In this document: in pieces, positions 975 through 25,037 of the stretch | Layout: each line of letters starts with the position of its first letter | How positions within the stretch are numbered: position 1 is the stretch's first letter | Virus record (IMG/VR): IMGVR_UViG_3300046167_000361 | Span: 1-31,099 of that record | Length of the DNA stretch: 31,099 bases | Strand: one strand, 5' to 3' | Source of the DNA: a virus | Made by a program: the position numbers and the translations under genes | The notes under the pieces: generated by a model | Database searches by the model: none | Told to the model about the DNA's origin: nothing | What the model saw: only the letters and a program-made list of their open reading frames with translations

Positions 975-2798
975 TTATTTCTTTTTTCCTTTTTTACCGC
1001 CTCCCCAATTTGGGTGGTGTCCATTGTTCGGCATATCAACAGGCGCAACAATCGACTCCTTTGTCCCTCGTGGATTAATATTGTATGTTTTTGGTATTGT
1101 TCTCGTTCTCTTGTAATCTGCAAACTCTGGACTCTCAATTGTCTTGTCAACCAATCTAAACAAAACTTTTTTCCAAACGTGGTGGCAATATGGTCCTCCT
1201 TTGTATTTAAATAAATCGTAGGGTTGGCTTTTATGTCCAAACTCACTATTAACACCCTCTCGACTTGCTTTGTCAATATCCTCCAAACGATAAACCGCAG
1301 GGTAGCCTTTACTATCAAATCTGCTCATCATTGTAGAGCAAAAATCTCGACTATCTCCAGAACTTTGTTTTTTCTGAAAATACTTATAACGTATCTTATA
1401 AAACGATTTGTCCAAATAACTAAATCCGCTTGGTTTTGGGGTAACATACCCTGCTAATTTTTGAGCCAAATTTTGTTTTGGGTTTAATAAATAATTCGCC
1501 CAAACCTCATCGTCAAACTCTTCTCCGTCACACTCGACCTCATCGACCTGCTCCCACTCATCGCCAATCTCATCGTGTTTTAGGTTGTTTAAAATAGCCG
1601 TAGAAATCTCGTCTGTTAATTCGACTTGTTCCGACATCTTAACTCCTGTTTCCTCCTCCTGTGTTTCATCGTCCACAAGTTCGCTATCAATCTCGGTAAA
1701 TTCTAATGGTTGTAATGTTTTAAAATATAGGTTTAAGCTAATTCCATTGAATGCCAAAATTTCGTCAAAAGCTTCGATTAGCAACTCTTGAAATGGTCTG
1801 ATAACCGTATTGTCCATTAATGTGCTAGCCGTCTTTAATTCATCTGCATTGTTCCCTAAACCGCTATTGTCTTTAATTCCTAACAACATTGGCGACACTA
1901 CTCTGTGAGCAACCATAATTTTTCGCATTGACTCGTCACTCAAAAACTGATATTGGTTGTGAGCATCCGATAATTGAACTGCCTCAATACTACTCTGTGT
2001 GTCTACGTTCTCGTTAAAGGAAAGTATAAATTTCCCTGCATTGGAACTGCCACTGTATTTCTCTAAAATACGTCTTTCGATTAGTTCCCTCTCCTCTTCA
2101 TTCGGTACTCCGTTGTTGAAGTTGATCAACATACTTGGTGCCAAGCCGTTCATTATGTTGTTTAGGTGGTAATTGGAAACCTCCTCCTCCAACTCTGCAT
2201 ATTGTAAGCCACCTTGGTAATCAACAGGCGAAAAGTAATAATGTCCTGCAACATATGGTTTAACGTATATCAATTCGATTGACTCACTACTCGTGCCAAA
2301 TGCAGGTATTCTTGTAACCTCATCTCCTTTTTTATACTTCGCCCAATCGTGGAAATAGTAATATCCGTTTACATCTCCGTTCTCATCACATTTTTCAATT
2401 GCGATTGTTTCAACAGGTAGATGCTCTACTCGTGCTATCTTTTTTCGATCCTTTGAATAAATAACTTGAATAGCACATTGTCCCATTAATTTAAGGTCAT
2501 TTGCTAACTTCCTAACGCAATCCTTTTTTATAAGCGATATTGCCTCCGCATATTCATTTGGTTTCTTGTTAGAGTCCGTTGCATCGAGTCCCTTGCCGTA
2601 TATCATTTGGCTAATACCATTCACAATAGCATTGTTTGTTGGACTGCCAGAATATCTGTCTAATAAATAATTAAAATATTCGTTCTTGTCTCCATACGTT
2701 ACCCAATCCTCGTTTTTCTGGACTTGAATATTTGGGCTCGTATAATTACTTAAATTGACAACATTGACCTTGCCTTGTATTGGTTTTCTCCTGCTCAT
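975..2798 (-). CDS. Portal protein with an extra C-terminal domain
   Basis: A 607-residue protein. The first ~370 residues look like a phage portal: an N-terminal region with GDKNEYFNYLLDRYSGSPTNN, then a beta-rich wing, then a helical stem/crown region with MVAHRVVSPMLLGIKDNSGL near residue 300, typical of portals that carry a 'P.L.G....G..N' segment. The portal forms the dodecameric ring through which DNA enters and leaves. From about residue 420 an acidic linker (EEETGVKMSEQVEL onward) leads to a second domain of about 140 residues with RDFCSTMMS, YRLEDIDKASREGVNSEFGH and GGPYCHHVWKK. Similar segments occur in other Bacteroidota phage head proteins; I do not know its activity. The start overlaps the upstream gene as ATGA. 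The tail is glycine/lysine rich (GGGKKGKKK). Confidence 0.8.
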   Translation of the reverse strand: MSRRKPIQGKVNVVNLSNYTSPNIQVQKNEDWVTYGDKNEYFNYLLDRYSGSPTNNAIVNGISQMIYGKGLDATDSNKKPNEYAEAISLIKKDCVRKLANDLKLMGQCAIQVIYSKDRKKIARVEHLPVETIAIEKCDENGDVNGYYYFHDWAKYKKGDEVTRIPAFGTSSESIELIYVKPYVAGHYYFSPVDYQGGLQYAELEEEVSNYHLNNIMNGLAPSMLINFNNGVPNEEERELIERRILEKYSGSSNAGKFILSFNENVDTQSSIEAVQLSDAHNQYQFLSDESMRKIMVAHRVVSPMLLGIKDNSGLGNNADELKTASTLMDNTVIRPFQELLIEAFDEILAFNGISLNLYFKTLQPLEFTEIDSELVDDETQEEETGVKMSEQVELTDEISTAILNNLKHDEIGDEWEQVDEVECDGEEFDDEVWANYLLNPKQNLAQKLAGYVTPKPSGFSYLDKSFYKIRYKYFQKKQSSGDSRDFCSTMMSRFDSKGYPAVYRLEDIDKASREGVNSEFGHKSQPYDLFKYKGGPYCHHVWKKVLFRLVDKTIESPEFADYKRTRTIPKTYNINPRGTKESIVAPVDMPNNGHHPNWGGGKKGKKK

Positions 2799-3151
2799 AA
2801 TATTATGTAATCATTATTGCTTGTTGGTTGAGGTTTGTACTGATCTTTATTAATTGTGTAACTGTCTTGATTGACTTGATCGATCACTTGGTTTGTAACA
2901 AAAACCTTGTCCTTGTAAATTATTTTTTCTGTGTTCGTATCTTTGATCCTCAACGTATAAAAAGTATTTTCTAATAAACCGACAAAATCCAAACTGCATT
3001 TTAAATAATCTCCGTGCAATTCATAAACACCGACTCCTGTATATTCAGTTCCTGTAATATCGTCAGTCAAAATCGTTTCCACATTAACCGAAGTTTCCCT
3101 CGTAATAATATAGAATGTTTGTGTGTCTGTTATTGATTTTAATACTATCAT
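2795..3151 (-). CDS. Beta-rich virion protein of unknown function
   Basis: 118 residues starting MIVLKSITDTQTFYIITRET. A longer frame upstream to 3301 exists, but it runs through a terminator hairpin and a low-complexity lysine stretch, so the ATG at 3151, just after the CGTTATACAATT motif, is preferred. The protein has alternating hydrophobic/polar strands (EYTGVGVYELHGDYLKCSLD) and resembles short immunoglobulin-like or beta-sandwich proteins next to portal genes in Bacteroidota phages. It is the first gene after a terminator, so it heads the portal operon. A role in the virion is inferred from position. Confidence 0.6.
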   Translation of the reverse strand: MIVLKSITDTQTFYIITRETSVNVETILTDDITGTEYTGVGVYELHGDYLKCSLDFVGLLENTFYTLRIKDTNTEKIIYKDKVFVTNQVIDQVNQDSYTINKDQYKPQPTSNNDYIIL

Positions 3152-3153
3152 AA

Positions 3154-3163
3154 TTGTATAACG
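3154..3163 (-). promoter_or_regulatory. Late leader/promoter motif, copy A
   Basis: Minus strand CGTTATACAA, followed by TT and the ATG at 3151. It sits 28 bases downstream of a terminator, so some promoter must lie here. A weak host-type promoter (TTG, 18 bases, TGGTTTTG, one mismatch to TAnnTTTG) also fits just upstream. Same motif at 7426, 15165 and 20404. Confidence 0.45.
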
Positions 3164-3191
3164 ACAAAACCAGAACTTTTTGCATAAAGAC

Positions 3192-3221
3192 AAAAAAAAA
3201 CCCCCACATTTCTGCAGGGGT
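3192..3221 (-). terminator. Rho-independent terminator after the moron-like gene
   Basis: On the minus strand ACCCCTGCA, loop GAAA, TGTGGGGGT, then a run of T. The 9-bp stem includes two G-T pairs. It ends transcripts of the gene at 3253-3525. Confidence 0.8.
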
Positions 3222-3252
3222 ATCGAATAATTTTTTTTAATTTTTATTTTTT

Positions 3253-3525
3253 TTAGTTTATAAAATCCTCTTTTGTTAAGTGGTCTGTTCCTATTATCCA
3301 ACCGTCAAATTTTCTAATTGAACAAGTTGTATTGGTAAATTGGTCATCTCCCCATTGTACAGGTTCGTGAGTTGTTTCAAATGTTATTGAGTATTTATCC
3401 TCCCAAACTCTTGTTACTACTGCTTGAACTTCTAAACCTGTTACCCACTTTGTAATTGTTTTTCCAATCATTTTGTGGTTTTTAATTTGTGTAAATTCTT
3501 TTGATGTTTCAAATTGTGATTTCAT
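3253..3525 (-). CDS. Moron-like small gene inside the head module
   Basis: A 90-residue soluble protein (MKSQFETSKEFTQIKNHKMI ... DHLTKEDFIN) that I do not recognise. It is charged and Trp-containing, with alternating beta-like segments (ITKWVTGLEVQAVVTRVWED) and no membrane segment or obvious catalytic motif. Its context is the notable part: a terminator lies upstream (3617-3647), a host-type promoter at 3558-3587, an early-type AAAAAAAGACAAAATT leader, and a terminator downstream. It is therefore an autonomous unit between late head genes, the arrangement defined for phage morons. Possible roles include host take-over or anti-defence, but nothing in the sequence shows which. The start ATG is fixed by the leader. 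Confidence 0.75.
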   Translation of the reverse strand: MKSQFETSKEFTQIKNHKMIGKTITKWVTGLEVQAVVTRVWEDKYSITFETTHEPVQWGDDQFTNTTCSIRKFDGWIIGTDHLTKEDFIN

Positions 3526-3557
3526 AATTTTGTCTTTTTTTATTATTAATTACATTA

Positions 3558-3587
3558 CAAAGATATTAACTTTTTTTGATAAAACAA
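3558..3587 (-). promoter_or_regulatory. Bacteroidota-type promoter for the moron-like gene
   Basis: Minus strand TTG (3585-3587), 19-base spacer, TATCTTTG (3558-3565), a full match to TAnnTTTG. Preceded by GC and followed by an AT-rich leader, nearly the same as the promoters at 17499 and 22136. Confidence 0.8.
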
Positions 3588-3616
3588 GCCTTTTGTAAAA
3601 AAAATGAAAAAAAACG

Positions 3617-3647
3617 TAAAAAAAAAGGGCAACCTCTCGGCTACCCT
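3617..3647 (-). terminator. Rho-independent terminator after the tail-tube-like gene
   Basis: Minus strand AGGGTAGCC, loop GAGA, GGTTGCCCT, then a T run. The 9-bp stem has two G-T pairs. It ends the capsid/tail-tube transcript about 25 bases after the stop at 3672. Confidence 0.8.
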
Positions 3648-3671
3648 CTTATAATTATTGGTTAGTTGATA

Positions 3672-4208
3672 TTAAATATCATCAATTTCATTAGTAGAAA
3701 CTGTAATCCCAACTCCAGAAACCCCACCTTGCAAGAAGTTTGCAGGTTTCTTCTCCATACCTTGTAATGTCAAAGTGTAGCCGCTCAAATCGCCCATAGC
3801 CGCACCTGTTACAACAGTACCGCCATTCACGTCTGCGCCCCATTCCAGACCTACCAAAAAGGCATTTCCGTTATTATCCTCAACAACTACGTGAGGTCTT
3901 GCTACTGCGATCAACGCTAATTCGTCGTGTGATTGTGGACTCAATTTTTTCAAAGTCAAAGTAATTAACTGATCGTAAAAAGTAGTTCCGTTTTCACGAC
4001 TTGATGTAATTGTTTGCTCTAAATTAGAGTTTCCTTTTAATGTATATTTGAAAGCCGTAGGTGTTCCTGCCAATGCAGTAATCTCATCACTATCGGTAGC
4101 ATAACTGATTGCTCCTAATGTTCCGTAGTCGATAAAATAAACTGCCTGCAATCCTCCAACGCTATCCTTGCAGGGCTCTAATCGTCCCTTGTTTAGTGTA
4201 CAAGCCAT
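3672..4208 (-). CDS. Major tail tube-like protein
   Basis: 178 residues. The C-terminal half carries a pattern typical of siphophage tube proteins: RPHVVVEDNNGNAFLVGLEW, then a GGT..TGAAMGDLSGYTLTLQG stretch and PANFL. The N-terminal half has SSRENGTTFYDQLITLTLKK. Tube proteins of this kind polymerise into hexameric rings around the tape measure. The gene follows the major capsid gene, separated by a strong hairpin (4239-4256), and is the last gene before a terminator. Capsid-proximal position could instead mean a head decoration protein; the tube call is by resemblance. Start: ATG at 4208, first in frame. Confidence 0.6.
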   Translation of the reverse strand: MACTLNKGRLEPCKDSVGGLQAVYFIDYGTLGAISYATDSDEITALAGTPTAFKYTLKGNSNLEQTITSSRENGTTFYDQLITLTLKKLSPQSHDELALIAVARPHVVVEDNNGNAFLVGLEWGADVNGGTVVTGAAMGDLSGYTLTLQGMEKKPANFLQGGVSGVGITVSTNEIDDI

Positions 4209-5205: not shown

Positions 5206-5826
5206 TTATTTATTATTAAAATTGTTAATTTTTTCGACTATAACGTCATAAGCCGACTTATGTGTATTTTTGTTAAATTTAAATTTAGGAGTAAATTTGC
5301 TCTCCTCTTTTGGTGCGTGTTTTAGTGGCTCTGTTGCAGGTTCTGATAATTGAGCATTTAACTCAACTTCTTCCTCTGTTTCCTTAACCTCTTCAACCTC
5401 TGACATTTCTGTTTGCTCTGTTTCGGTTTCCTCTGACATTTCTTTTTTGTCGCTTTTTAGGTCTTCGATCATCGCAACAATCTCCTCCAGAGCAGTAATA
5501 AACTCCTCTTTTGAAACGTATGCCATTTCTTTTTCGTCTTCTGCTTCAACCTCTTCGGTTTCCTCCTCTTCGACTTCCTCAACCTCTTCGTCTCCGTATT
5601 GAGCAATAACGCCCTCCTCTTCAACTACAAGTTTAGTTCCGTCCTCCAATTCGTACTCGCCAACAGGTAGAGCAACTTTTTCGTCCTCTGTAACAATAAA
5701 AACCGACTCTCCTGCCTCGAATTTTTCTGCCTCGATCACAGTCCCATTGTCAAGTTTCATTTGCTCCAAAGACACTGTTAAGCCAAGTATGGCTTTTACT
5801 CTCTTCAATGTTTCTGTTGCATTCAT
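5206..5826 (-). CDS. Acidic scaffold-like head assembly protein
   Basis: 206 residues. The N-terminal ~75 residues form a beta-rich domain (VALPVGEYELEDGTKLVVEE), then a very acidic, Glu/Val-rich low-complexity region (residues ~78-150, EEVEEVEEEETEEVEAEDEK) with a likely coiled coil (EEFITALEEIVAMIEDLKSD), then a basic C terminus (HKSAYDVIVEKINNF). An acidic helical protein immediately before the capsid gene (spacing 2 bases) and after the XkdF-like protease fits a scaffold that is removed during head maturation. The basic tail would be the capsid-binding end. The function is inferred from context. Confidence 0.65.
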   Translation of the reverse strand: MNATETLKRVKAILGLTVSLEQMKLDNGTVIEAEKFEAGESVFIVTEDEKVALPVGEYELEDGTKLVVEEEGVIAQYGDEEVEEVEEEETEEVEAEDEKEMAYVSKEEFITALEEIVAMIEDLKSDKKEMSEETETEQTEMSEVEEVKETEEEVELNAQLSEPATEPLKHAPKEESKFTPKFKFNKNTHKSAYDVIVEKINNFNNK

Positions 5827-5875: not shown

Positions 5876-6319
5876 TTAAGCCTTTTTCTGAATAATAAAC
5901 CACTCGTCTCCACTACTCCAAATATAAATGCCCTCGTACGCTTTATTGATTTCGTAAACATCAGTACTGCCGTCCAGTTCATTATTAACAGAGGGTGTTA
6001 GATTTACTCTTGTATTTGTTTCAAAAGTTCTATCAGTTATTATTCTAATTGCTCTATTTTCCGATGCTTGTGGTAGGTTTAAGGTCATAGTACCTGACGC
6101 TCCACTCCATTGCAACCTTATTAACTTCCAATCGCTATACTGACTATCGTTGAGGTTTATAGTAGTATCTGCACTTACTGTTAAATCGTGTCCTATTACT
6201 CGGTTGTCTATTTCGTTCAAACTGACTCTCCTTGACTCATTACCTTGAACAAAAACAAATTCCTCGCTACCTTGTAAAGCTGTTGCGATAGGTAGTTCAC
6301 TTATTCTCTTGTCTGCCAT
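5876..6319 (-). CDS. Virion-associated beta-rich protein
   Basis: 147 residues. It opens with MADKRISELPIATALQGSEE, an N-terminal stretch widely seen in phage structural proteins ('ISELP.A....'), then a beta-rich region ending in EGIYIWSSGDEWFIIQKKA. Such proteins decorate heads or serve as trimeric fibre-base modules. It starts on the last base of the preceding stop (6319), so the two are coupled. Exact role unknown. Confidence 0.6.
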   Translation of the reverse strand: MADKRISELPIATALQGSEEFVFVQGNESRRVSLNEIDNRVIGHDLTVSADTTINLNDSQYSDWKLIRLQWSGASGTMTLNLPQASENRAIRIITDRTFETNTRVNLTPSVNNELDGSTDVYEINKAYEGIYIWSSGDEWFIIQKKA

Positions 6320-6531
6320 TATAATTTTATTTTGTAATCATTTTCTTGTAACAAATCAAAACCATTCTCCTGTAATAGATTGTTTGTTATTCTCACAATA
6401 GTTCCAATACCTTGTGCCTGTAAACTTCCGTCACAACATTTTTTGCTATATGTTCCGTCTGGACATAAACAAGCCTGTCGTCCGTTTTTTGGACTCGATT
6501 TGCTTGGTGTTTTAAATACTCTATTACGCAT
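6319..6531 (-). CDS. Cysteine-rich small phage protein
   Basis: 70 residues from the ATG at 6531. A TTG two codons earlier is possible, but the ATG overlaps the end of the protease gene and gives MRNRVFKTPSKSSPKNGRQA. The core CLCPDGTYSKKCCDGSLQAQ has four cysteines, a compact signature I recall next to head genes of other Bacteroidota phages. The C-terminal half has a short internal repeat (LLQENGFDLLQEND). Function is unknown; metal or disulfide stabilisation is possible. Confidence 0.65.
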   Translation of the reverse strand: MRNRVFKTPSKSSPKNGRQACLCPDGTYSKKCCDGSLQAQGIGTIVRITNNLLQENGFDLLQENDYKIKL

Positions 6532-7423
6532 TGTCAATTTCTTTTAATTTACTGATTGCCCAATTTACACCTGCCGAGCCTCCCCAAGCATCCCACATTA
6601 AACCACCGCAACCCTCTGAATAAGGTACATCTTTATTCTGTTGATGTCTTTTAAAACTTGCCATTCTTGCAATCGTTGATCGGCTGAAATTTTTCTTTTC
6701 GACTCAACTGTCCCTGCACTCGTCCAACCCACCTGTGTTCCGCAATCACTTCCATTCTCCTCTTTCCACTTTATTGCCCGTTTTGCATTGTTTACTGCTC
6801 CTTGTGGATAATCATTATACGTTTCCAACTGAACACCTCTTAAAACGTCCTTTAATTCCTTTAAAACCTCGTCTGCGTATAATTCCTCCTCATTTACTTG
6901 ACTTAATTCAGCCTTATCAGCAAAGTAGCCCTCAATAGAAAAACCTTTGACCTTGCCTGTTTTTACATAATCATTCCAGACCTCATCGTTATCAACCTTT
7001 ACTGCTCCAACCCAAGTCCCCTAATGGTAAATCCATTCCGTACATATTGGATTTGTCATTTTCTTTGTCCTCCACAAGCCAACTCTCAACAAGCGTTAAA
7101 CCCTCAATCGCACTATTATGCTCCAAAGTGGAGTTACTTTGGTTACCTTGTTTTAAGTATAGTTGTGAAGCCTTTCGCACCGTCTCTCTACTAAAATAAA
7201 TGTAATACTCTTCATCTCCATTTTTTCGATAAATTGGTTTGTTAGGGATCAATATTGGTCCAATAAGTATTTTCTTGTCCTTATCTACTTCGGCAAATTT
7301 ATACTCCTTTGTTTCTGTTTTTAATGCAACAAAATCCTCCTCAATCGCAGGGTTTTCTACAACAGAAATTGCCTCAACAAAATTGTCTTGCTCTTCGTCT
7401 AAAATTAACTCAACTATTTTCAT
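6524..7423 (-). CDS. XkdF-like prohead protease, two frame breaks
   Basis: The ATG at 7423 starts MKIVELILDEEQDNFVEAIS. The first frame stops at 6992 and a second stretch is open at 6828-6598, but both look like one protein. Near 7019-7023 removing one G from GGGG turns DLPLG-DLGWSSKG into GTWVGAVKVDNDEVWNDYVK followed by GKVKGFSIEGYF. Near 6690-6700 one extra A in the AAAAA run turns KRKISADQR into KRKNFSRSTIARMASFKRH. The frame then runs to TAA at 6524, ending SAGVNWAISKLKEIDNA. The total is 299 residues. Features match the XkdF-type phage serine protease family: His102 in TLEHNSAIEG, VESWLVEDKENDKS, and Ser about 162 in GFSIEG. It would cleave scaffold and capsid during head maturation, consistent with its place before the scaffold and capsid genes. 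The breaks probably are sequence errors. Confidence 0.75.
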
Positions 7424-7425
7424 AT

Positions 7426-7435
7426 TTGTATAACG
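7426..7435 (-). promoter_or_regulatory. Late leader/promoter motif, copy B
   Basis: Minus strand CGTTATACAA, then AT and the ATG at 7423. It lies in the 34-base gap between the tape-measure stop (7458) and the protease gene, after an A-rich stretch. It would start a separate head operon. Confidence 0.4.
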
Positions 7436-15164: not shown

Positions 15165-15174
15165 TTGTATAACG
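15165..15174 (-). promoter_or_regulatory. Late leader/promoter motif, copy C
   Basis: Minus strand CGTTATACAA, then TT and the ATG at 15162. It follows a terminator by 31 bases, and no host-type TTG/TAnnTTTG pair fits between them, so this motif is the best candidate for the start signal of the tail operon. Confidence 0.5.
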
Positions 15175-15484: not shown

Positions 15485-15672
15485 TTTTCTAATTTTAACT
15501 GTTGGTATTCTTTTGATTGCATCGATCTCGAATGTCCGTACCATTCAAATAATATCTGCAACCTATCTTTTTTTAGTCGTGTAATATCTAATTCCTGTAA
15601 TAATGTCTGGAACTCTAAATCGTACTCCTTTGATCTTTTTAAGTGTTGTTCGTATCTCTCTTTTGTTGTCAT
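15481..15672 (-). CDS. 63-residue helical protein
   Basis: MTTKERYEQHLKRSKEYDLE and later LLQELDITRLKKDRLQILFE: a charged, probably coiled-coil protein. It is joined to both neighbours by ATGA overlaps. Unknown function. Confidence 0.6.
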   Translation of the reverse strand: MTTKERYEQHLKRSKEYDLEFQTLLQELDITRLKKDRLQILFEWYGHSRSMQSKEYQQLKLEK

Positions 15673-15821
15673 CTCATATTGTTTATGTAACTAATTATTC
15701 TGTCCCTCTCATCTCTCAACCCTGTCAATGTTATTGATCTGGGTGTGTAAGCGACCATTAAATCAATTTGTTTATTAACTTCTTTTAACTCGCCCTTTAA
15801 ATCATCTAATTGTGTTCTCAT
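15669..15821 (-). CDS. 50-residue helical protein
   Basis: MRTQLDDLKGELKEVNKQID, then TPRSITLTGLRDERDRIISY. Likely two helices. ATGA overlaps on both sides (15669-15672 and 15818-15821) support it. Unknown function. Confidence 0.6.
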   Translation of the reverse strand: MRTQLDDLKGELKEVNKQIDLMVAYTPRSITLTGLRDERDRIISYINNMR

Positions 15822-16012
15822 TTTTTTAAATTTTCTATTTCTTGTAATAACTTCTCAATGTAAACTGTTGCGTCCATTAACTCCTCCTGCAGATGTTTGA
15901 GCCAATCGGACAAAGATAGGTCGCCTCGCTCCATAGTAACTCCGTACTTCTTTTTTCCTATCTCTGCCCTCTCGTTTATACGATCAATGACTCTCTGTTC
16001 AATCTTGCTCAT
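15818..16012 (-). CDS. MazG-like small protein
   Basis: 64 residues with RAEIGKKKYGVTMERGDLSL and DWLKHLQEELMDATVYIEKL. This pattern is common in short phage proteins related to the helical MazG/dUTPase-like nucleotide pyrophosphohydrolase fold (the EE..DA segment would be part of the metal site). The domain is shorter than a full MazG, so enzymatic activity is uncertain. It may influence nucleotide pools or ppGpp. The single-base overlap with its upstream gene at 16012 suggests coupling. Confidence 0.6.
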   Translation of the reverse strand: MSKIEQRVIDRINERAEIGKKKYGVTMERGDLSLSDWLKHLQEELMDATVYIEKLLQEIENLKK

Positions 16013-16395
16013 TAATTTGTTCTAAATATGTAATAGTCCTCTTCTCCAAATGTGTACTCAAATTCCGATCCGTCATATCCAGAAAAGTGATGTCCATATC
16101 CGTCAGCATCTAAACAATTTTTTGCCGTCTTCTCCCAATCTAACTCAATCCACCAATATTTGTCTAAATCAGTACCTCCCAAATAACACTCCTCAACTGT
16201 ATTTTGTATCTCCTCAACAAAGGTCTCCCAAATAGTTTCTGCATTAATTACTCTGTACTCGTTTCCGTCAATCTCAATGTAAAAATCATTCTCTGAATTT
16301 AACGAGTTTTCAAACTCCTTGACCTCTTCTCTGTTAATGTCAAGTTCCAACTCTTCACTAATAAACTCTAAAATTTGTCTTTTAATTGTTTTCAT
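16012..16395 (-). CDS. 127-residue acidic hypothetical protein
   Basis: An acidic, Trp/Tyr-rich protein: MKTIKRQILEFISEELELDI, DFYIEIDGNEYRVINAETIW, and a C-terminal region with GGTDLDKYWWIELDWEKTAK and YGHHFSGYDGSEFEYTFGEE. The composition is DNA-mimic-like or anti-defence-like only in a loose sense; I do not recognise a family function. A GC hairpin (16413-16429) and the AAAAGACA leader precede it. Confidence 0.65.
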   Translation of the reverse strand: MKTIKRQILEFISEELELDINREEVKEFENSLNSENDFYIEIDGNEYRVINAETIWETFVEEIQNTVEECYLGGTDLDKYWWIELDWEKTAKNCLDADGYGHHFSGYDGSEFEYTFGEEDYYIFRTN

Positions 16396-16412
16396 TATTT
16401 TGTCTTTTAATT

Positions 16413-16429
16413 GGGGGCTATTAACCCCC
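16413..16429 (-). promoter_or_regulatory. Leader hairpin upstream of the 16395 gene
   Basis: Minus strand GGGGGTTAATAGCCCCC, a 5-bp GC stem with no T run. It lies 17 bases before the ATG and is followed by AATTAAAAGACAAAATA. A similar hairpin precedes the 17264 gene. It could stabilise the message end, shape the leader, or terminate weakly. Confidence 0.35.
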
Positions 16430-16439
16430 TTTGTTATTA

Positions 16440-16592
16440 TTATAATCTATCTAATTGTAAAACGCTATTCGCTGATTGTTCTGGTGTCTCTCCAAATGTT
16501 TTGTGAAACATTGCATAAGCAAACTGCATTTGGTCTTTTGTTAATTTTTTTCCTGTTCTTACTACTTTTACTACAAAATCTAAATACTCCAT
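16440..16592 (-). CDS. 50-residue hypothetical protein
   Basis: MEYLDFVVKVVRTGKKLTKD, then QMQFAYAMFHKTFGETPEQS. A promoter at 16621-16651 and the AATTTAAAAGATAAAAAAA leader lie just upstream, which supports it. Unknown function. Confidence 0.55.
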   Translation of the reverse strand: MEYLDFVVKVVRTGKKLTKDQMQFAYAMFHKTFGETPEQSANSVLQLDRL

Positions 16593-16620
16593 TTTTTTTA
16601 TCTTTTAAATTATTATACGT

Positions 16621-16651
16621 TAAATATAATACGTTAAATAGTTTTATCCAA
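16621..16651 (-). promoter_or_regulatory. Bacteroidota-type promoter
   Basis: Minus strand TTG (16649-16651), 20-base spacer, TATATTTA (16621-16628). The spacer ends AACGTAT, as in the promoter at 16965. It drives the gene at 16440-16592. Confidence 0.65.
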
Positions 16652-16669
16652 ATTTTTTAATAATTATTT

Positions 16670-16939
16670 TTAATTTATTTTAGTAACATTCATTACTCTG
16701 CCAAAACTATCTGTGTAAATATCTTTTACTCGATCCATTAAAGTGTCGTATAAGAAATCTGCTTTTATATCGTACCAAGCATTCTTGTCCCCCTCCAACT
16801 TTATGTAATCAACGCTATCCTTGTAACCTTTATAATCTCTGTAATGAACGACTGCCTTGTGGTCTGCTATTAATGATCCGATTGTCTTTGTAGTTTCGAT
16901 CGTGATCTCTTTTTTTGGAAATTGATTTGTAAAATTCAT
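16670..16939 (-). CDS. 89-residue hypothetical protein
   Basis: MNFTNQFPKKEITIETTKTI, KAVVHYRDYKGYKDSVDYIK and DRVKDIYTDSFGRVMNVTKI. A small alpha/beta protein with its own promoter (16965-16995) and the AAAAAAAAGACA leader. Unrecognised. As part of a cassette of separately promoted small genes, a host take-over or anti-defence role is conceivable but not shown. Confidence 0.6.
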   Translation of the reverse strand: MNFTNQFPKKEITIETTKTIGSLIADHKAVVHYRDYKGYKDSVDYIKLEGDKNAWYDIKADFLYDTLMDRVKDIYTDSFGRVMNVTKIN

Positions 16940-16964
16940 TGTCTTTTTTTTAATTATCTTGCGT

Positions 16965-16995
16965 TAAATATAATACGTTCCCTTTACTTATCCAA
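16965..16995 (-). promoter_or_regulatory. Bacteroidota-type promoter
   Basis: Minus strand TTG (16993-16995), 20-base spacer, TATATTTA (16965-16972). Nearly the same core as at 16621. It drives the gene at 16670-16939 and overlaps the end of the short frame at 16984-17103. Confidence 0.65.
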
Positions 16996-17103
16996 ATTTT
17001 TTAACAACTTTTTTTGTATTTTTTTTCTAACATCTAATTGTTGTTTGCTATTTGGAAACATTTTAAATGCCTTGTTATATAGTTTAAGTAACTCCAGATC
17101 CAT
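16984..17103 (-). CDS. 39-residue basic peptide
   Basis: MDLELLKLYNKAFKMFPNSK, then KKIQKKLLKNLDK. It starts 2 bases after the stop at 17106 of the upstream gene. Short and helical; coding status is uncertain because a promoter overlaps its end. Confidence 0.35.
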   Translation of the reverse strand: MDLELLKLYNKAFKMFPNSKQQLDVRKKIQKKLLKNLDK

Positions 17104-17105
17104 TG

Positions 17106-17264
17106 TTATACAAATTTTAAACATTGTTTTAAGTCCTCCAGATCCCAAAACTCAATAACTCCCTTTGTTATATTGTTAATCGTAACCTTGTCATTGTTTA
17201 ACCCAATGATCTCTGCCTTGTGATTGACTTCATCTGTTCTAATAATTTCTATTTCTGTTCTCAT
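17106..17264 (-). CDS. 52-residue hypothetical protein
   Basis: MRTEIEIIRTDEVNHKAEII, then DKVTINNITKGVIEFWDLED. It is preceded by a GC hairpin (17281-17298) and the leader AATTAAAAGACA directly before ATG. Unknown function. Confidence 0.5.
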   Translation of the reverse strand: MRTEIEIIRTDEVNHKAEIIGLNNDKVTINNITKGVIEFWDLEDLKQCLKFV

Positions 17265-17280
17265 TGTCTTTTAATTTAAA

Positions 17281-17298
17281 GGGGGTTTTTACACCCCC
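17281..17298 (-). promoter_or_regulatory. Leader hairpin upstream of the 17264 gene
   Basis: Minus strand GGGGGTGTAAAAACCCCC followed by TTTAAATTAAAAGACA and ATG. It resembles the hairpin at 16413. With three T it could be a weak terminator of the 17463 unit, or a leader structure. Confidence 0.35.
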
Positions 17299-17310
17299 AT
17301 TGTTTGTTAA

Positions 17311-17463
17311 TTATATTATTTCTAAATCGTAAATTGACTTATTCATTTCATTACATTTTTGCAATAATTTACTTGCAATAAATGTTATTTCTGAATTTGG
17401 TAATCTGTTTCCAGATTTTCTTAATTTGTTTTCAATGTAGTTTAATTTAAATTCTGCACTCAT
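17311..17463 (-). CDS. 50-residue hypothetical protein
   Basis: MSAEFKLNYIENKLRKSGNR, then LPNSEITFIASKLLQKCNEM. Predicted mostly helical. The clear promoter 36 bases upstream (17499-17528) supports the call. First gene of the cassette after the terminase. Confidence 0.55.
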   Translation of the reverse strand: MSAEFKLNYIENKLRKSGNRLPNSEITFIASKLLQKCNEMNKSIYDLEII

Positions 17464-17498
17464 AATATTGTTTTTTAAGTTTCTAATTAATTACAATA

Positions 17499-17528
17499 CA
17501 AAGATATTAAAAAAATTTAATAAAACAA
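17499..17528 (-). promoter_or_regulatory. Bacteroidota-type promoter for the small-gene cassette
   Basis: Minus strand TTG (17526-17528), 19-base spacer, TATCTTTG (17499-17506), exact TAnnTTTG. It lies in the gap after the large terminase gene. Confidence 0.8.
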
Positions 17529-17561
17529 GCATAAAGCAAAAAAAAATAAAAAAAAATTTTA

Positions 17562-20403: not shown

Positions 20404-20413
20404 CTCTATAACG
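20404..20413 (-). promoter_or_regulatory. Late leader/promoter motif, copy D
   Basis: Minus strand CGTTATAGAG, then TT and the ATG at 20401. One C/G and one A/G difference from the other copies. It heads the ParB/glycosyltransferase/terminase operon. Confidence 0.4.
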
Positions 20414-24034: not shown

Positions 24035-24537
24035 AACAATTTTGTTATATCGTTTAAATCTTTATTTTTGATCTCATATGTAGTGCAACCAAAAACTGTA
24101 AACGTTCCGTTGTCTCTTTGCCTCTTCGTTCCCTTTTTAAACTTCTCGGCTCTCTCAAATAACTCCTCCTTTGTAACCCAACCGCAAGCAGTAACATCGC
24201 TTGTCTTTTTATTCAATGAAGCAAATATGTAAATGTCACATTTGAAATGTTTTTGCAATCCAGAAAAATTGTGTACATAATCTGGTCGCATATTCACGTT
24301 TCTGCCCATTGTTTTAATATCGACTTTTTTGTCTCCGAGCATCATATCGTAACCTCCGTCAAAATCATTTTTAAACTCAAAATCCTGCTTGAATAATTGG
24401 TGTACTTTCATTTCTCCCAAAAGTCCAATATATTGATGTACTTTTTTTCCGTCAAAGTCTCCTCTGTTTCCTATGTCATTATTTTTAAGAAACTCCCAAA
24501 CCTTGTTTTTTTCTTCCTGTGTAATTGTTATTCTCAT
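24031..24537 (-). CDS. PD-(D/E)XK nuclease-like protein
   Basis: 168 residues. GLLGEMKVHQLF (Glu42), DFDGGYDMMLGDKKVDIKTM (Asp64 and Asp73-x-Lys75) form a full PD-(D/E)XK-type set. A C-terminal region with CGWVTKEELFERAEKF and FTVFGCTTYEIK follows. It could process replication intermediates or degrade host DNA. Joined by ATGA overlaps to the sigma-like gene and the next gene. Confidence 0.65.
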   Translation of the reverse strand: MRITITQEEKNKVWEFLKNNDIGNRGDFDGKKVHQYIGLLGEMKVHQLFKQDFEFKNDFDGGYDMMLGDKKVDIKTMGRNVNMRPDYVHNFSGLQKHFKCDIYIFASLNKKTSDVTACGWVTKEELFERAEKFKKGTKRQRDNGTFTVFGCTTYEIKNKDLNDITKLL

Positions 24538-25037
24538 TTTTTTATTTTTTGGTTTAACATCTTTTTAATTTTCAAAACTGTTCTCCGTATGGAGTGATAA
24601 TCAATCCCTGTTTTTTCAGCAAGTTGCGACATATTCCAACCCTCCAGAAAAACCAACTCATAAATTTTAATTTCATATAAATGCCATTTTTTTATGTCCT
24701 CCTTAATTTCCTGTAATCTCTCTTCATATTCAAAACCTCCATTCAAAACAAATGGCTCATTGTGAATTTCGTCTGTAAAAATAATTCTCTTTTTTTTCTT
24801 TGACTGATCCAGAAACATATTACGCAGAACTTTAAAAACAAAATAATAATTGACCTCTGTTTCATTAAACATCAACGTCTTGTTATACTTTCCTTTCCAA
24901 CTATAAATTTTAATATACATATCCTGCACCATATCCTCTGCAACGCTATCCGCTCCAAATGACTTGGCAATCCGTACCCACTTATCGTGGTCCTGTGCTA
25001 ACAATGTAATAACGTTATTCCTCTTCGTCTGGTTCAA
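24534..25037 (-). CDS. Sigma-70-like transcription factor
   Basis: 167 residues starting at a TTG (25037); an in-frame stop lies two codons further up and the first ATG (codon 36) would remove region 2. Region 2-like: FGADSVAEDMVQDMYIKIYS (about 27-46) and YYFVFKVLRNMFLDQSKKKK. Region 4-like helix-turn-helix: FLEGWNMSQLAEKTGIDYHS and IRRTVLKIKKMLNQ (about 130-162). The layout is that of a small ECF-like sigma factor, about 50 residues between regions. It may redirect the host polymerase to late genes. It overlaps the 40-residue gene upstream by 23 bases. Confidence 0.75.
   Translation of the reverse strand: MNQTKRNNVITLLAQDHDKWVRIAKSFGADSVAEDMVQDMYIKIYSWKGKYNKTLMFNETEVNYYFVFKVLRNMFLDQSKKKKRIIFTDEIHNEPFVLNGGFEYEERLQEIKEDIKKWHLYEIKIYELVFLEGWNMSQLAEKTGIDYHSIRRTVLKIKKMLNQKIKK

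Follow-up and report, generated by a model that had tools for sequence, protein, structure and literature searches.

The locus studied here raises the question of why a 90-aa gene with transcription signals of its own lies among the head genes of a phage, and whether it is a moron, as had been proposed from the sequence alone (the sequence-only reading). The window analyzed is a 31,099-base IMG/VR virus record from a marine bacterial virus, and the locus was read on the minus strand. In this direction, a capsid-like gene and a late gene at 3672–4208 are followed by a terminator of type A (3624–3649; GGGTAGCC...GGTTGCCC with T9) predicted to end the transcript of 3672–4208, an early-type promoter with a conserved upstream stretch (3558–3597), an A-rich early-type leader of 32 nt (3526–3557), the 90-aa gene itself (3253–3525) and a terminator of type B (3200–3221; ACCCCTGCAGAAATGTGGGGGT with a T run) predicted to end the transcript of this gene. 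The next operon starts with a late-type promoter (3157–3183; GCAAAAA...CGTTATA) located few nt 5′ of the ATG of 2795–3151, which encodes a 118-aa protein with no assigned function, and continues with the portal gene (975–2798; PHROG 33693, E 8.6e-106). L001 and L004, two other contigs, show the same arrangement of the 90-aa gene unit. The genes on this strand include an MCP-like gene, the portal gene and further head genes, in agreement with the late head genes that the sequence-only reading had named as neighbours. Its placement of the gene between tail-tube and portal genes was found to be correct in part: the portal gene follows only after the gene for the 118-aa protein, and no support was obtained for a tail tube encoded by 3672–4208, for which the match was PHROG 19091, with no function assigned.

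The motif TTG-N19-TATCTTTG, with TTG at −33 and TATCTTTG at −7, was found as an exact match at 3558–3587 on the minus strand, which bears out the perfect TTG-N19 promoter previously claimed, except that the −33 element reads CTTG and not the full TTTG. The more general form TTG-N19-TANNTTTG showed seven matches in the window compared to 1.24 expected from shuffles. A matrix for which the promoters before 27292, 22102, and 17463 served as training sites gave the promoter of the 90-aa gene a score of 36.9, compared to 12.4 for the best non-member and a highest score of 16.1 in 40 simulated 31-kb strands. It ranked fourth among 62,120 window positions with this matrix and seventh when six training sites were used, in both cases behind training sites only. 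The distance from the −7 element to the ATG was 32 nt, and this A-rich leader resembled those of the other early genes in the window, as the earlier description of an early-type leader implied. In L004, the promoter motif was retained and the spacer was altered. The Flavobacterium consensus given in PMC6847099 (TTTG / TAHHTTTG) is close to the TTG-N19-TANNTTTG of the window. By its sequence, the promoter is the seventh member of the early-promoter set predicted for this phage, and the gene is predicted to have a promoter of its own, as expected of a moron.

With strict criteria, five terminators were predicted on the coding strand over the whole 31-kb window, two of which (3624–3649 and 3200–3221) bracket 3253–3525, confirming that there is a predicted terminator on each side. 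The gene is thereby predicted to have its own terminator and to be insulated from its neighbours. The upstream one is of the same type as the single terminator of the relative L006, which carries type A alone. Terminator 3624–3649 followed by promoter 3558–3597 forms a composite of a stem-loop and an early promoter, and this was the one clear composite of its kind in the window.

Comparison with relatives showed that the junction itself is conserved and its content is not. The gap between the flanking genes was 94 nt in L086 and L089, which lack the 90-aa gene, and 521 and 511 nt in L001 and L004, respectively, which carry it. DNA identities to the window over the flanking genes and the portal gene ranged from 88 to 97% (95–97% for L086 and 88–93% for L089). 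L001 was identical to the window at the gene, and carriage in the window, L001, and L004 indicates that the gene is stable in that part of the lineage. In L088, L091, L101 and others, the same junction was filled by different small genes. Presence or absence among close relatives, on which the sequence-only reading had made its proposal depend, thus favours a moron, and the opposite outcome that it had named, a structural gene conserved at this site throughout the relatives, is ruled out with regard to the place. Downstream, the window has 72 nt in common with L086, among them terminator B; upstream, the first 17 nt are common to L004 and L086. The difference between filled and empty sites therefore consists of terminator A, promoter, and gene. 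At the sequence level, both the position of the unit and its mobility are established. Comparison of L101 (filled with another gene) and L102 (empty) showed an insert that begins and ends within a terminator T-tract, and in two empty/filled pairs the insert was bounded by terminators or T-tracts. Given that type A is the only terminator in L006 and similar relatives, L086 and L089 may once have carried a cassette of which the terminator was left behind.

For a census of the junction, profile searches were run over 345 loci, of which 268 had both flanking genes in order, representing 221 distinct sequences that do not include the window. The loci were the best matches (best 80 per query) of four syntenic searches, started from the window (twice), L119, and L071, all of them filled-site phages, and of searches with cargo proteins. 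Hand sorting divided the 221 sequences into 187 with a gap below 140 nt (empty), 18 with coding cargo, and 16 others, the last including L067–L069 with a doubtful 53-aa ORF; as the cargo class was hand-picked and the searches started from filled sites, these frequencies are not prevalences, and counts of best-matching loci that are related among themselves are neither prevalences nor independent. Inserts were also present in L023 and L087, each truncated at one flank, and in Nonlabens phage P12024S, none of which is among the 221. P12024S and P12024L carry an ORF on the opposite strand at this position. Overall, the junction was occupied by at least nine distinct families of small genes. Among the cargo families tested, only DUF7258 gave a family match above the cut-off, and a function was assigned to none. 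The same spot in relatives is thus either empty or occupied by other small genes, and therefore appears to be a parking place for swappable genes.

TANNTTT(G/A) was found 25–46 nt before the ATG of 10 of the 18 first cargo genes (shuffles: average 1.7, maximum 9 in 2000); the remaining 8 had no −7 element at the expected distance. All 187 empty sites had one terminator, while 15 of the 18 cargo sites had two and three had three; the other class had one (14/16) or two (2/16), and Markov-shuffled cargo inserts contained 0.01 on average. A CAGA(A/G)ATG loop was present downstream of the cargo in 9/18, upstream in 0/18, and in 15/187 empty-site stretches.

Enlarged gaps, defined as exceeding median+150, were found at 31/194 junctions between 3672–4208 and the 118-aa gene, a number that includes duplicated 118-aa genes and inserts without ORFs. 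The corresponding numbers were 0/226 for MCP and 3672–4208, 1/211 for the 118-aa gene and portal, 3/194 for 5206–5826 and MCP, and 5/192 for portal and 472–972. The interval between 6992–7423 and 6319–6537 was enlarged in 22/67 cases, a value that allows no fair comparison since the interval contains further genes in the window as well, and early-region junctions were represented by 6–15 loci each, with 0–2 enlarged. Among well-sampled structural junctions, this junction is hot. Docking at every operon boundary was rejected as an explanation, since there were no enlarged gaps between TMP and 7423 (0/27, a count that misses the distant L185 and L186, whose 121-aa gene adjoins the 7423 homologue) despite a late-type promoter, and none between MCP and 3672–4208 despite a terminator.

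Some gaps were not accepted as morons. Those of L038, L041, L047, L048, and L064 contain what is apparently a tandem duplicate of the 118-aa gene, ahead of the portal gene, and those of L018 and L092 hold inserts without ORFs. The latter inserts are about 180 nt long; that of L092 contains repeated GTACGTT motifs, and a stretch of this type also precedes the cassette of L088. At the same junction, L263 and L245 have an insert with a cargo gene of 129–132 aa (77% identity within the pair). Its product showed no Pfam match and has a GDCVVRA...NHLV pattern reminiscent of papain-like proteases.

In their early region, L002/L003 carry a copy with 91% identity to the 90-aa gene, whereas the other 14 matched genes of L003 were 25–75% identical to those of the window. 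Besides, the GC content of the 90-aa gene was 0.311 compared to 0.38–0.42 in the late neighbours. Both differences point to horizontal acquisition of the sequence. Relatives with 43–47% identity were located directly 3′ of the terminase gene in L166–L168 and in L169/L170 (terminase 38% identical), and those of L167 and L168 carry their own TATATTT(G/A) promoter. In the window, this post-terminase place holds a twin of the moron promoter (17499–17538, minus strand). PF23919 was found in 6/46 records behind the loci. In Bacteroides phages such as DAC16, a longer DUF7258 relative lies beside a ribonucleotide reductase gene, a neighbourhood that was considered too thin to assign a function. Other cargo was also found at more than one place. 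The 90-aa cargo gene of L088 and L091 was present at the same junction in L291, after the terminase gene in L174, and before tail genes in L173; L176–L178 have it in their early region, on the opposite strand. The 121-aa cargo gene of L088 was found again in L119 and L023 as well as in L185 (portal 28%), where it lies on the opposite strand.

The product of 3253–3525 belongs to Pfam DUF7258 with a score just above the cut-off (28.6 bits vs. 27). The dN/dS was 0.10–0.14 in three pairs, and judged from these substitutions the gene is a real protein-coding sequence under purifying selection. No PHROG, NCBIfam, or PADLOC match and no family beyond DUF7258 were found, and a PDB sequence search gave no relative (the best match, ATP synthase gamma with E 0.14, was regarded as fortuitous). 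A small, SH3-like barrel is suggested by the AlphaFold2 model (mean pLDDT 75). Foldseek with this model against PDB and viral models gave no match at E 0.001 or better, and a function was not derived from the fold, as only common small-barrel matches (Tudor/chromo/SH3) were obtained (best Z 5.6, rmsd 2.4 over 57 residues). Alignment of the gene against genome contigs gave no relative. A portal search of these contigs gave three MAG contigs, which do not show lysogeny; PF23919 was present in 0/3 of these MAG genomes, where the controls were silent as well. No paper on DUF7258 by name was found in the literature searched, and nothing ties this family to any host target. A role in host take-over or anti-defence, as suggested from the sequence alone, is a guess at a candidate function with about an even chance of being right.

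Three other explanations of the gene were weighed. Its place between head genes on the same strand would fit a small virion or assembly gene of the head module that merely has a promoter of its own, but such a gene would not be expected to be missing from L086 and L089 with intact flanks or replaced by unrelated genes elsewhere, and the family is also found in the early region of L002/L003 and beside the ribonucleotide reductase gene of DAC16; we consider this explanation highly improbable. An ordinary early gene of the lineage that was relocated within its own genome and kept, and does not come from a pool shared among phages, would explain why promoter and leader match the early genes of the window and why relatives have the family in their early regions. 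Against this, an identity to L002/L003 above that of the other matched genes speaks for transfer from phage to phage, and many unrelated genes use the junction, which makes relocation unlikely, if a little less so than a virion role. The presence of a single small gene of unassigned function at a probably neutral site would also be compatible with a selfish stowaway of no benefit to the phage, yet the insert has no second ORF as a possible nuclease, transposase, or antitoxin, and the gene is under purifying selection; of the three, this one has the smallest chance of being correct.

Thus, 3253–3525 is very probably a true moron, i.e., a one-gene early-type transcription unit that was added horizontally and docked at a late operon boundary, and the description as a textbook moron agrees with its presence/absence pattern, promoter, and terminators. 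Such a unit would arrive in the phage genome by horizontal transfer and dock between the terminator of one late operon and the late promoter of the following one, so that neither operon should be disturbed. Its promoter, of the same class as the phage early promoters, would fit the main sigma factor of the host, and the gene should therefore be read once the DNA enters, which implies early expression, while its terminator would keep the transcript away from the late genes. Gain and loss would take place by recombination at terminators or T-tracts, and the small, predicted SH3-like protein would have a dispensable, host-directed role. The claim that the phage has no visible lysogeny genes held for integrases (PF00589 0/25 and PF00239 0/25 records, many of which may be fragments; controls positive in 14/14 and 10/14 genomes).

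A second promoter class, with CGTTATA few nt before the ATG, was found at four operon starts on the minus strand (3157–3183, 7429–7435, 15168–15174, and 20407–20413), preceding the genes that start at 3151, 7423, about 15162, and 20401. At the junction, this promoter was conserved in an alignment of 42 distinct empty sites. To judge from their sequence, these transcripts are probably nearly leaderless and late. The product of 24534–25037 (minus strand) is a predicted ECF-like sigma factor and a candidate switch for these late promoters. It showed weak Sigma70_r2 and r4_2 matches, Sigma70_r2 being detected in 7/9 members of its family (best E 9.2e-5), and its two PDB sequence matches were both sigma factors. 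ECF sigma factors were also the top structural matches (E 2.5e-4 with Foldseek), with Z 9.3 over 137 residues, the rmsd of 17.7 being due to a different placement of the two domains, and Z 8.9 at an rmsd of 2.3 over 79 residues for region 2. This protein may read the CGTTATA promoters.

Morons with their own promoter and terminator are textbook elements of lambdoid and other phages (described in parts of PMC2147016 and PMC6316719), and the unit resembles them in being a single gene with both signals, located between conserved genes in some relatives only. It differs in that no integrase was found in this phage group, the promoter is of the early-gene class in a phage that seemingly runs its late genes by a separate sigma factor, and many different genes use one docking junction. 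In the lytic siphovirus SPP1, for which morons in the late region are described (PMC6316719), moron genes bracketed by transcription signals likewise interrupt the virion gene order, but SPP1 belongs to another lineage with a host of another phylum, its segment also has a replication origin, and empty and filled sites can here be compared across many relatives. By analogy, the nearest known mechanism is that of the PeSL promoter-terminator cassettes of T4-like phages (Arbiol 2010; Comeau 2014; both as cited in PMC4503421), in which a stem-loop terminator is likewise joined to an early promoter and small orphan genes are shuffled among phages, although sequences and phages are different and the window has one clear composite. 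A common early promoter also marks small accessory genes in archaeal viruses, where anti-defence genes were found by their early regulatory sequence and their function was tested (PMC11065993), whereas the present case concerns a bacterial virus and is based on sequence alone. No account of this junction was found in the literature searched, although one may exist. The moron is of a kind already known, and the junction is unusually clean to study. Reading between two conserved genes offers a route to host-interaction genes of uncultured marine Bacteroidota phages, with the junction as a bait site and, if some cargo genes block host defences, as a ready-made collection for functional screening. 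The contrast between one and two terminators makes gain and loss of morons in lytic phages testable from sequence.

Tentatively, and with somewhat less than an even chance of being right, late-operon boundaries of this group of marine flavobacterial siphoviruses, each made up of a terminator followed by a phage-sigma late promoter, could be docking sites for small early genes that have a promoter for the host sigma factor, in many cases also a terminator of the CAGAAATG type, and are swapped by recombination at terminators and T-tracts. Such swapping would imply one host-directed gene pool common to several sites and phage lineages, and the lone terminator of an empty site, as in L086 and L089, would be the scar left by a lost cassette.

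Small genes preceded by early-type promoters form a second zone (15545–17538, minus strand; about 15.5–17.5 kb), which starts with the twin promoter directly 3′ of the large terminase gene and in which relatives carry DUF7258 or the 90-aa cargo gene. In L174 (227–1958), about 1.7 kb separates the genes 20425 and 20401, which are adjacent in the window, and contains an ORF with a methyltransferase-like TSPPYN motif.
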